A stretch of 64,000 nucleotides of DNA, taken from Ridgeia piscesae (taxonomy: Eukaryota; Annelida; Polychaeta; Sabellida; Siboglinidae). Position numbers and translations under genes: made by a program. Below the pieces are notes generated by a model. The model had not been told where the DNA came from. It saw only the letters and a list, made by a program, of their open reading frames with translations, and made no database searches. Within the stretch, counting starts at the first letter, position 1; every line of letters starts with the position of its first letter. Location: contig JAODUO010000140.1 in assembly GCA_025642075.2 (NCBI GenBank), positions 83,501 to 147,500 of the forward strand, given 5' to 3'. This document shows positions 21,301 to 33,300 of this stretch, piece after piece.

Positions 21301-24300
21301 AATTAAGCATAACCATAACACCAACTGCTGAACTCCTCAATTTTGTAATCACTGATCTTATTGGCCGATTAAAAATGGTGTCGTGGACAACAGGGAATAC
21401 AATGTCATGAGATGTTGGAACATTTGATTGGCGCAGTGAGCTGCTTTACAATTCTTGGCAAAATGGAGGAATTGGCACTGTAGCACTGAAACAGTTAATA
21501 TATGTAAAAGTTTTCTTCCCTATCAACACACCGTGTACCCCCCCACCCTATGAAGCATCAGGCCATTTCTTATGTAATCTGACATGTTGTGTTGTAGAGC
21601 TGAGAAGAGGCAGCGTGTTGTTGATATTCTTCTGCAGATCATGGTTGACAGCATAGGATTCACAGTGAGTATTGTCACATCATGGTTGACAGCATAGGCT
21701 TCACAGTGAGTATTGTCACATCATGGTTGCCAGCATAGGCTTCACAGTGAGTATTGTCACATCATGGTTGAGAGCATAGGCTTCACAGTGAGTATTGTCA
21801 CATCATGGTTGACAGCATAGGATTCACAGTGAGTATTGTCACATCATGGTTGACAGCATAGGATTCACAGTGAGTATTGTCACATCATGGTTGACAGCAT
21901 AGGATTCACAGTGAGTATTGTCACATCATGGTTGACAGCATAGGATTCACAGTGAGTATTGTCACATCATGGTTGCCAGCATAGGTTCACAGTGAGTATT
22001 GTCACATCATGGTTGAAGCATAGGTTCACAGTGAGTATTTCACATCATGGTTGCCCGCATAGGTTCACAGTGAGATTTCACATCATGGTTGCCCGCATAG
22101 GATTCACAGTGAGTATTGTCACATCATGGTTGACAGCATAGGCTTCACAGTGAGTATTGTCACATCATGGTTGACAGCATAGGCTTCACAGTGAGTATTG
22201 TCACATCATGGTTGACAGCATAGGATTCACAGTGAGTATTGTCACATCATGGTTGACAGCATAGGCTTCACAGTGAGTATTGTCACATCATGGTTGACAG
22301 CATAGGCTTCACAGTGAGTATTTCACATCATGGTTGCCCGCATAGGTTCACAGTGAGTATTGTCACATCATGGTTGCCCGCATAGGTTCACAGTGAGTAT
22401 TTCACATCATGGTTGCCAGCATAGGTTCACAGTGAGTATTTCACATCATGGTTGCCAGCATAGGATTCACAGTGAGTATTGTCACATCATGGTTGCCAGC
22501 ATAGGATTCACAGTGAGTATTGTCACATCATGGTTGCCAGCATAGGATTCACAGTGAGTATTGTCACATCATGGTTGCCAGCATAGGATTCACAGTGAGT
22601 ATTGTCACATCATGGTTGACAGCATAGGATTCACAGTGAGTATTGTCACATCATGGTTGACAGCATAGGATTCACAGTGAGTATTGTCACATCATGGTTG
22701 ACAGCATAGGATTCACAGTGAGTATTGTCACATCATGGTTGCCAGCATAGGATTCACAGTGAGTATTGTCACATCATGGTTGCCAGCATAGGCTTCACAG
22801 TGAGTATTGTCACATCATGGTTGACAGCATAGGATTCACAGTGAGTATTGTCACATCATGGTTGACAGCATAGGATTCACAGTGAGTATTGTCACATCAT
22901 GGTTGACAGCATAGGATTCACAGTGAGTATTGTCACATCATGGTTGACAGCATAGGATTCACAGTGGGTATTGTCACATCATGGTTGACAGCATAGGATT
23001 CACAGTGAGTATTTCACATCATGGTTTTAAACATAGGTTCACAGTGAGTATTGTCACATCATGGTTGACAGCATAGGATTCACAGTGAGTATTGTCACAT
23101 CATGGTTGAAGCATAGGATTCACAGTGAGTATTGTCACATCATGGGTTCAAGCATAGGATTCACAGTGAGTATTGTCACATCATGGTTGACAGCATAGGA
23201 TTCACAGTGAGTATTGTCACATCATGGTTGACAGCATAGGCTTCACAGTGAGTATTGTCACATCATGGTTGCCAGCATAGGATTCACAGTGAGTATTGTC
23301 ACATCATGGTTGAAGCATAGGATTCACAGTGAGTATTGTCACATCATGGTTGACAGCATAGGATTCACAGTGAGTATTGTCACATCATGGTTGCCAGCAT
23401 AGGATTCACAGTGAGTATTGTCACATCATGGTTGCCCGCATAGGTTCACAGTGGGTATTGTCACATCATGGTTGCCAGCATAGGTTCACAGTGAGTATTG
23501 TCACATCATTTTGCCCGCATAGGTTCACAGTGAGTATTGTCACATCATGGTTGCCAGCATAGGCTTCACAGTGAGTATTGTCACATCATGGTTGCCAGCA
23601 TAGGATTCACAGTGAGTATTGTCACATCATGGTTGCCAGCATAGGCTTCACAGTGAGTATTGTCACATCATGGTTGAGAGCATAGGTTCACAGTGAGTAT
23701 TGTCACATCATGGTTGCCCGCATAGGTTCACAGTGGGCCCTCATGGTTGACAGCATAGGATTCACAGTGAGTATTTCACATCATGGTTGCCCGCATAGGC
23801 TTCACAGTGAGTATTGTCACATCTGGTTGCCCGCATAGGTTCACAGTGAGTATTGTCACATCATGGTTGAAGCATAGGATTCACAGTGAGTATTTCACAT
23901 CATGGTTGGAAACATAGGATTCACAGTGAGTATTTCACATCATGGTTGCCCGCATAGGTTCACAGTGAGTATTGTCACATCATGGTTGCCCGCATAGGAT
24001 TCACAGTGAGTATTTCACATCATGGTTGCCAGCATAGGTTCACAGTGAGTATTTCACATCATTTTGCCCGCATAGGTTCACAGTGAGTATTGTCACATCA
24101 TGGTTGGAAACATAGGATTCACAGTGAGTATTTCACATCATGGTTGACAGCATAGGATTCACAGTGAGTATTATCACATCATGGTTGCCCGCATAGGTTC
24201 ACAGTGAGTATTTCACATCATGGTTGCCCGCATAGGTTCACAGTGAGTATTTCACATCATGGTTGGAAACATAGGATTCACAGTGAGTATTATCACATCA

Positions 24301-30300: not shown

Positions 30301-33300
30301 TCATGGTTGACAGCATAGGCTTCACAGTGAGTATTGTCACATCATGGTTGACAGCATAGGATTCACAGTGAGTATTGTCACATCATGGTTGCCAGCATAG
30401 GCTTCACAGTGAGTATTGTCACATCATGGTTGCCAGCATAGGCTTCACAGTGAGTATTGTCACATCATGGTTGCCAGCATAGGTTCACAGTGGGTATTGT
30501 CACATCATGGTTGACAGCATAGGCTTCACAGTGAGTATTGTCACATCATGGTTGACAGCATAGGCTTCACAGTGAGTATTGTCACATCATGGTTGCCAGC
30601 ATAGGATTCACAGTGAGTATTGTCACATCATGGTTGACAGCATAGGTTCACAGTGGGTATTGTCACATCATGGTTTCCCGCATAGGCTTCACAGTGAGTA
30701 TTGTCACATCATGGTTGCCCGCATAGGTTCACAGTGAGTATTGTTTACCCGCATAAACTTTATTTAAAATGGTTTGATTCCTGAGTATTGTCACACTTTT
30801 GGTTTAAAGCAAAGGGTTTAAGTGAGTATTGTCAATCATGGGTTAAAATAGGTTAAGGGGTATTTCCCCTGGGTTTAAACAATAGGTTCCCTGAGTATTG
30901 TTACTTTTGACCGGTTGGAGTATTTTACTCATGGTTTAAATGGGTTTCCTGGGTTTTCCCATCATGGGTTTGGATGGGCACGTAGGAATATTTTGGATGG
31001 TTCCCTGGGTTTTTTTAACTTTGAAGGGGGAAGGGTTAAAAAGTAGGAAATTTTCAACAGGGAAACTGGGTTCCTAGAATTTTAAAAGGGTTAAACATCA
31101 AAGGGTATTGTGGTTAACTCTGCATTATTGATGCCTCAGCATAATTGTTAATCAACTTTGTTTTGAAACTGGATGTATTGTTTACCATTTGAAACAAAAA
31201 TTTCAGGCCAAATCTTTCAAATTGCAAACATTGTTCTGAGCTTAGTAAACACAATTTAGCAGCCAGTAAACCATCTGCATGCAGGTTGTCATAAGAATAC
31301 ACAATAAAATCTATGAACTGACACCTTCACTTAACTCTTGATATTGTCACGTCATAGTTGACAGTTGAGAGGATTCACAATGGATTGTTAAATAATTGTT
31401 GTTTACTTGATTAACTAAGGCATGATGAGTGAGTATCCTATCTTTTGGGTGTATACCTGAGCAATCAGATGTGATGAGTGAGTGTCTTTTGGGTGTGTAC
31501 CTGAGCAATTAGGTGTGACGAGTGAGTGTCTTTTGGGTATGTACCTGAGCAATCAGGTGTGACGAGTGAGTGTCTGTTGTGTGTGTACCTGAGCAATTAG
31601 GTGTGACGAGTGAGTGTCTTTTGGGTGTGTACCTGAGCAATCAGGGGTGATGAGTGAGTCACTGAGTATCTTTTGGGTGTGTACCTGAGCAATCAGATGT
31701 GACGAGTGAGTGTCTTTTGGATGTGTACCTGAGCAATCAGGTGTGATGAGTGGGTGTCTTTTGGGTGGGTACCTGAGCAATTAGGTGTGACAAGTGAGTG
31801 TCTTTTGGGTGTGTACCTGTCCTATCAGGTGTGACGAGTGAGTGTCTTTTTAGGTGTGTACCTGAACAATCAGGTGTGATGAGTGAGTCACTGAGTATCT
31901 TTTGGGTGTGTACCTGAGCAATCAGATGTGACGAGTGAGTGTCTTTTGGATGTGTACTTGAGCAATCAGGTGTGATGAGTGGGTGTCTTTTGGGTGGGTA
32001 CCTGAGCAATTAGGTGTGACAAGTGAGTGTCTTTTGGGTGTGTACCTGTGCAATCAGGTGTGACAAGTGAGTGTTTTTTTCGGTGTGTACCTGTCCAATC
32101 AGGTGTGATGAGTGTCTATTTGGTGTGTACCTGAGCAATCAGGTGTGATGAGTGAGTGTCTTTTTGGTGTGCACCTGAGCAATCAGTTGTGACAAGTGAG
32201 TGTATTTTGGGTGTGTACCTGTCCAATCAGGTGTGACAAGTAAATGTCTTTTGGGTGTGTACCTGAGCAATCAGTTGTGATGAGTGAGTGTCTTTTGGGT
32301 GTGTACCTGAGCAATCAGGTGTGAAAAGTGAGTGTCTTTTGGGTGTGTACCTGAGCAATCAGGTGTGACGAGTGAGTGTCTTTTGGGTGTGTACCTGTCC
32401 AATCAGGTGTGACAAGTGACTATCCTTTGGATGTACACATCCAGTCAGGTAAGTTGAGTGAGTTGTTGGGATGCGTACCTGTCCTGTCCAGGTGTGATGA
32501 ATGAGTGTGCCCAGGATGTATAACTAACACTCAGGTGTTTGTTTATTGTTTCAGCCGACACAGATCAGCATTCTCTTCACCTTTCTTGCCCGTCAGATGG
32601 CGACACCTGACAATACAATCATTGTCAATCGATCGCTCTTCGAACAGGTTTGTGTATTCTGTGGTGTCATGTCATCATAGTGATCATGTTACTACCCAGC
32701 TGGACACAGCAGAAAGCAAAGACCACAGTGTTAAAGGCTAAATGAAATTGAACTCTTTTTATTCCCAATCTGAATTAAAGACACTCTCCTAGTGTCTGCT
32801 ATTCAGATGTGTTTAATCCCCTCCATAAACCTTTTGGTAATTGTGTTCTAGTTTTTCTTGTGACACCCAGCAATGGGGAGTGATGTCATTAAAGTAGGAG
32901 CTGTTGCCATGTTACATTATGTGTCTTGGTGTTTCAGACCGTACCTGAAATTGCAATTGCAGAATGTAATCACCATAAAATTAATAATCTTACCTACACA
33001 CGTGTTGCTTCGGGAAGTTGGCGTAATGTTTTAATTATTGCTGTTTAAACATTGCGAATTTTAAAACTTGCAATGTGATTTAACATTTTTACAGAGTAAT
33101 CCTAAGGACTGCATTACATATCTTATAAGAACTTTGAAATAACTTATTGATGTAGTTCGATAATAATATCAACATTAACATTATTTACACACTCATTTTC
33201 AAAGTGCAACTCTATTCAATGGTGTTAGCAGTATTCCTACATCCTTTAGCAGTATTCCTACACTCTAATAGTCTAACACTAGTCTTATCTAATGATTAAT

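Follow-up and report, generated by a model that had tools for sequence, protein, structure and literature searches.

What becomes of a gene when one of its own splice junctions is repeated more than two hundred times within the adjoining intron? This question is raised by a 64,000-nucleotide stretch of the genome of the hydrothermal-vent tubeworm Ridgeia piscesae (contig JAODUO010000140.1, forward-strand positions 83,501 to 147,500; hereafter the window), in which a 41-bp tandem repeat begins at the end of an exon of the VPS8 gene. Here we describe this array and consider why VPS8 would tolerate it. The account that we hold to be highly probable, judged from the sequence, is that of an intronic minisatellite born from a VPS8 splice junction, which would be tolerated because the first splice donor wins, the later donors being near-neutral.

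A 41-bp array in register with a VPS8 splice junction

Unit 1 of the array can be read directly in the sequence: it consists of the last 27 nt of exon 12 (the twelfth as counted within the window, not in the whole gene) followed by the first 14 nt of its intron, and further units follow head-to-tail, as the preliminary description of this locus had proposed. Tandem Repeats Finder (TRF) reported a period of 41, 225.9 copies and 91% matches, with a score of 13775 that is the highest in the window, and cyclic alignment to the consensus ATCATGGTTGACAGCATAGGATTCACAGTGAGTATTGTCAC resolved 226 units. Exact counts on the + strand gave 202 occurrences of CAGTGAGTATT and 17 of CAGTGGGTATT, none of them elsewhere in the window, and the 9.1 kb of the array contain 221 GTGAGT/GTGGGT sites. 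The G at intron position +1 is kept in 225 of the 226 units and the T at +2 in all of them, so that the earlier figure of about 220 donor-like copies is borne out. With many head-to-tail copies of a unit within the range of about 10–100 bp, the array is a minisatellite, and because it spans the donor of an authentic exon and its units carry that donor, it can be referred to as a splice-donor minisatellite.

A further copy lies outside the array, in non-degenerate sequence. This isolated relic reached a local alignment score of 49, compared to a maximum of 25 in 200 single-base shuffles, with 43 of 48 aligned bases identical and 5 additional gap columns, and it carries the unit junction GTCAC-(G/A)TCAT. 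Because it holds the junction between two units, the relic descends from a tandem array, and the tandem structure thus does not rest solely on a region that is hard to assemble.

The longest open reading frame (ORF) listed over the array spans 105 aa and none was taken as a gene, RNA folding of three stretches gave no signal of structure (z-scores of -0.36, 0.07 and 0.05), and neither Rfam families at gathering scores nor tRNAs were detected in the window. The exact unit pattern had 0 occurrences in viral contigs and 0 in prokaryote genome contigs.

The host gene and the end of exon 12

The assignment of the gene to VPS8, already made in the preliminary description, was corroborated by exon matches that run in order through the window (tblastn with a human VPS8 probe), by a match of the exon at 12116 to Pfam TPR_Vps8 (6.1e-14) and by VPS8 domains on two deposited Ridgeia piscesae proteins. 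A search with the joined-exon protein scored 567 proteins at E<=1e-10 among the 7996 candidates passed on to scoring; among the 120 of these matches that were listed, most of the named ones are VPS8, and the top one is R. piscesae NP493_140g01015 (572 aa), which has a Vps8 RING domain and of which 571 of 572 residues are covered by 10-residue words that the + strand of the window encodes without change. The second protein, NP493_140g01014 (641 aa), contains the VPS8 beta-propeller domain; its C-terminus reads on into an intron, and the window matches this part letter for letter up to a stop at 3769. Judging from the deposited protein, about 400 residues of VPS8 lie upstream of the window. When exons 12-14 were used alone, no Pfam family was matched, and among solved structures there was no VPS8 match, only two chance matches (E 0.59).

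At the joint between exons 12 and 13 (FT/PTQ), residues are present in 119 of 120 aligned relatives (the best 120 of the 567 proteins), and 0 of these 119 insert any. Because no relative inserts residues at the joint, it is through use of the first donor, ACA/GTGAGTAT, that VPS8 is made. The end of exon 12 at 21664, as first described, is firm on this protein alignment.

The deposited gene models were considered as evidence for the exon 12-13 joint and rejected, given that NP493_140g01014 reads through an intron and that the NP493_140g01015 model begins at an ATG inside exon 13. The Ridgeia annotation divides VPS8 into two genes and omits the exons from 12116 to 21664 from both. The VPS8 exon at 19249-19325 shows a one-base frame break compared to relatives, which reflects either a fault of the assembly or a variant that is disabling, and this break, near 19290, may explain the omission of exons from the deposited models as well as the array does.

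All later donors lead to the same stop codon

The exon 12 donor is of middling to low strength. Among 22 VPS8 donors scored, it ranked 16 by a generic position weight matrix and 13 by U1 duplex energy (-7.6 kcal/mol), a ranking which leaves out exons 253-363, ~2775, ~18300 and ~20095 and in which the choice of donor at 46310 is open to doubt. It is without a G at position -1. Counting the authentic site, the array contains 202 GT sites that equal the exon 12 donor in strength, and 221 that come within 2 kcal of it.

Computation of the reading frame showed that use of any of the later GTGAGT/GTGGGT donors (220 of 220) produces an extended exon carrying one and the same in-frame TAG, located in unit 2. 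Since all 220 bring in this stop codon, only the first donor can make VPS8. An exon scan paired weak acceptors with array-unit donors.

These features invite a functional reading, in which the array would modulate splicing by competing for U1 or for splice-site pairing, with its length tuning VPS8 output via exon 13 skipping or decay of later-donor transcripts. Consistent with such a role, the 202 equally strong sites match a mid-to-weak authentic donor, none of the 220 later donors is productive, loss of exon 13 would preserve the frame, and in the human ABCA7 array discussed below exon 19 skipping depends on length and expression is lowered (PMC5954066). However, the donor is not set apart in conservation and the relic has lost its copy, and we therefore regard a splicing modulator as unlikely.

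A putative route from one junction to a tolerated array

In the account that we favour, the founding unit would be the 41-bp junction of VPS8 exon 12 and its intron, which slippage or unequal exchange may have copied downstream. Expansion would have been permitted because the extra copies lie in an intron, where downstream growth would leave the coding exon and the first donor intact. That donor would normally be chosen via exon definition, since it marks the end of the 67-nt exon that follows the acceptor, while the remaining donors would bind U1 transiently at most and act as near-neutral decoys. By analogy with ABCA7, a small fraction of transcripts is predicted to retain one 41-nt unit and to be destroyed by nonsense-mediated decay, and some in-frame skipping of exon 13, rising with array length, may possibly occur.

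The position of the array on a junction needs no special cause, because the chance that at least 1 of 11 minisatellites (TRF rows with a period of >=15 and >=3 copies) covers one of 43 junctions, the ends of exons 253-363, ~2775, ~18300 and ~20095 being left out, was 0.26; it is the size of the array that is the remarkable part.

Polyadenylation signals and the supply of U1

The preliminary description had also suggested that the array could sequester U1 or shield the 10.9-kb intron from premature polyadenylation. Where U1 is bound close to donors, poly(A) sites in the vicinity are suppressed, and 221 GTGAGT/GTGGGT sites in 9.1 kb would make for a dense binding array. Against a shield, the + strand of the array contains 0 AATAAA and 0 ATTAAA, compared to 71 and 51, respectively, in the 53,203 bases of the remaining window, and the rest of the intron has one AATAAA, situated between the two arrays, a signal that the donors might conceivably suppress. 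As the intron without its arrays and tail amounts to about 450 bases, there is little to protect. Sequestration fails on stoichiometry: U1 is present at about a million particles per mammalian cell, and relative to a pool of this size, a mammalian figure, a few nascent transcripts with about 200 sites each would be negligible. On both grounds, we rejected either role as the main account and consider it extremely improbable.

Conservation of the donor within the units

When the 41 nine-base windows are ordered by conservation, those that cover the donor come 3rd, 5th, 6th and 8th. The best-kept window, TTCACAGTG, shares with the donor its first three intron bases, the runner-up, TCACATCAT, has no overlap with it, and CATAGG, likewise outside the donor, is invariant in 226 of 226 units. 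Thus, the donor is well kept yet not set apart, and the units offer no clear case for its selective retention. The same pattern, together with a relic copy whose donor has been lost, provides no evidence for a U1-related function as put forward for this locus.

Four observations nevertheless weigh against a purely passive array. The donor-covering windows all fall within the top fifth for conservation. Exon 12 itself appears in neither deposited gene model. Adjacent units are identical in a fraction of 0.120 of pairs (lag 1) as opposed to 0.034 after shuffling, and this resemblance of neighbours, together with the recurring block of 27 units described below, constitutes structure that leaves neutral growth and function unseparated. 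Finally, although the effect is marginal, sense-strand donors in two further VPS8 arrays are not predicted by a purely neutral account.

These two arrays, a 44-bp array in the same intron (Table 1) and a 71/87-bp intronic array at 38936-40135, are both unrelated to the 41-bp repeat, and in each the sense strand of a unit carries about one U1-type donor, compared to 0 on the other strand. In a survey of 14 hand-picked TRF rows, four showed about one strong + strand donor per unit and ten showed none; besides the main array, two donor-rich arrays were seen vs ~0.33 expected, by a hand estimate that is post hoc and marginal. One could imagine that all three VPS8 arrays (41, 44 and 71/87 bp) have been kept donor-rich in sense and jointly form a length-adjustable brake on VPS8 splicing, with in-frame skipping of exon 13 when the main array is long, a scenario which we consider quite improbable.

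Block duplication and the reliability of the assembly

Copy number and unit order rest on one assembly, and the internal structure of the array bears on how far they can be trusted. A block of 27 units recurs 34 units downstream (blocks A and B, Table 1). Between the two copies, 26 of 27 unit pairs share the head type (9.1 expected) and 15 of 27 the tail motif (5.7 expected), 7 of the 27 pairs being identical, whereas three variable sites match at chance level only and look like noise in this comparison: site 21 in 15/27 (16.3 expected), site 31, the letter distinguishing GTGAGT from GTGGGT, in 22/27 (22.2 expected) and site 37 in 24/27 (24.1 expected). The order of head types has been inherited, or else it has been assembled twice. 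Units 26467-28904 additionally display a three-unit rhythm (lag-3 z 4.2).

The proposal that all variation among units is sequencing noise was dropped, as head order repeats in two blocks and as successive units are correlated at site 21 (lag-1 z 6.8). Because of this autocorrelation, site 21 is not noise alone, despite its chance-level agreement between the blocks.

It is possible, if on balance rather unlikely, that the array is partly an assembly product, that is, a real array of different size to which the assembler added copies or in which it garbled them. The presence of a 27-unit block twice and the chance-level agreement of sites 21, 31 and 37 between its copies point in this direction. 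Substitutions copy the neighbouring base in 289 of 349 cases (210 expected), 103 of which are of one type, and 19 of the 24 distinct substitution types do so (13.7 expected). The degenerate tail of the array contains 52 homopolymer runs of >=3 (shuffle mean 20.4, maximum 34, 500 shuffles), and the frame break of one base seen in exon 19249-19325 would fit the same explanation. One published Ridgeia assembly, as far as the accessible text of its report goes, was made from short reads with SOAPdenovo and GapCloser and has a contig N50 of 10.42 kb (PMC9921365). Short reads would hardly resolve the array, since 50.9% of its 60-mers, and still 14.1% of its 100-mers, occur more than once; its longest exact repeat measures 201 bases.

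On the other hand, the window contains 0 N in 64 kb, unlike an assembly with a contig N50 of 10.4 kb, and the block copies differ, whereas a greedy short-read loop would tend to yield identical ones. The autocorrelation of site 21 is unlike pure noise, the relic unit lies outside the array, and NP493_140g01015 is almost completely covered by exact words of the window. A Ridgeia study based on third-generation sequencing also exists, being cited by title and drawn on in the text of another paper. Overall, the array is real and spans about 9 kb in this assembly, its exact copy number is unproven and many of the unit differences are uncertain.

Further features of the window

The coordinates of the features are compiled in Table 1. 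An intronless ORF of 678 aa is nested in a VPS8 intron on the - strand (6019-8055); it contains a short coding repeat, DRKVLPG, and had no Pfam match at 0.001. At 55339-55706, long pure TA tracts alternate with short AT-rich spacers, and AAGTAAGAT before and ATCTTACTTT after some of the TA tracts look inverted by eye.

Table 1. Features of the VPS8 locus in the window (positions are those of the window)
Feature	Position	Strand	Remarks
VPS8 exons 1-6	253-363, 1159, ~2060, ~2775, 3403, 12116		
VPS8 exons 7-12	~16303, ~17479, ~18300, 19249, ~20095, 21598		
VPS8 exon 12	21598..21664	+	ends ...IMVDSIGFT; last 27 nt open repeat unit 1
41-bp minisatellite	21638..30744	+	~226 units, nearly every one with exon end and donor
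Presumed authentic 5' splice site	21665..21672	+	ACA/GTGAGTAT
In-frame TAG in unit 2	21695..21697	+	enters mRNA when any donor but the first is used
Block A, 27 units	26467..27558	+	recurs as block B
Block B	27844..28938	+	second copy of the 27-unit block
Degenerate tail	30745..31110	+	many short homopolymer runs; either decayed units or a consensus of low quality
Isolated relic	31339..31388	+	~1.2 units; includes unit-to-unit junction; donor GTGAGT lost
44-bp array	31441..32434	+	same intron; 22.3 copies (TRF), 18 strong donor sites
VPS8 exon 13	32555..32647	+	93 nt; skipping leaves frame intact

Comparison with known splice-junction repeats

Tandem copying across a splice junction has counterparts in other systems. 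In intron gain by tandem duplication, a duplication over an exon-intron boundary likewise copies splice signals; there, however, one duplication over the 3' boundary of an intron makes a new intron, whereas in VPS8 the donor-side boundary has been amplified, with neither a new exon nor a new intron in evidence. Turri and colleagues reportedly described, in 1995, a short minisatellite at an exon end of the human interferon-induced gene 6-16 (IFI6), whose units are each splice donors; these are said to measure 12 bp and to number a few dozen copies, several of the donors being actually used.

The closest parallel is the variable number tandem repeat (VNTR) in intron 18 of human ABCA7, which contradicts the earlier statement that no described gene has a donor amplified to this extent. 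According to the part of the report available to us (PMC5954066), it consists of a 25-bp unit whose first two bases are those of the exon 18 donor, and alleles sized by Southern blot in 452 people ranged from 298 bp (~12 units) to 10,678 bp (~427). The same text states that a donor lying one unit further down sees some low-level use, leading to a frameshift and a stop, that retention of one unit affects 2 +/- 1% of transcripts independently of VNTR length, and that with VNTR length exon 19 skipping rose strongly and expression fell (PMC5954066).

As with this VNTR, so far as it is described there, the VPS8 array begins at and includes the 5' splice site of a real exon and comprises hundreds of copies, the total length being ~10 kb in ABCA7's largest alleles. 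The two differ in that the ABCA7 unit is C-rich, starts at the GT and has no coding sequence as described in that text, whereas the 41-bp VPS8 unit includes 27 nt of coding exon. Moreover, allele lengths and effects on splicing and expression have been measured for ABCA7, again according to the accessible portion of the report, whereas the VPS8 array is known here from the sequence of one assembly.

A literature search on repeats with splice donors found no paper, from which we do not claim that splice-junction minisatellites of tubeworms are absent from print, and the portions available of three tubeworm papers (PMC8789280, PMC12380324, PMC12045306) contain nothing on a VPS8 array. What would be new here is the coding sequence within the unit, the occurrence in an animal far from human, and two further donor-bearing arrays in the same gene.

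The locus offers a natural experiment in which the spliceosome chooses one of ~220 near-identical donors placed 41 nt apart. Together with ABCA7, it suggests that splice junctions have repeatedly given rise to minisatellites across animals, and if the length of the array alters the use of exon 13, the ABCA7 effect would have its second case, one outside humans, in tubeworm VPS8.

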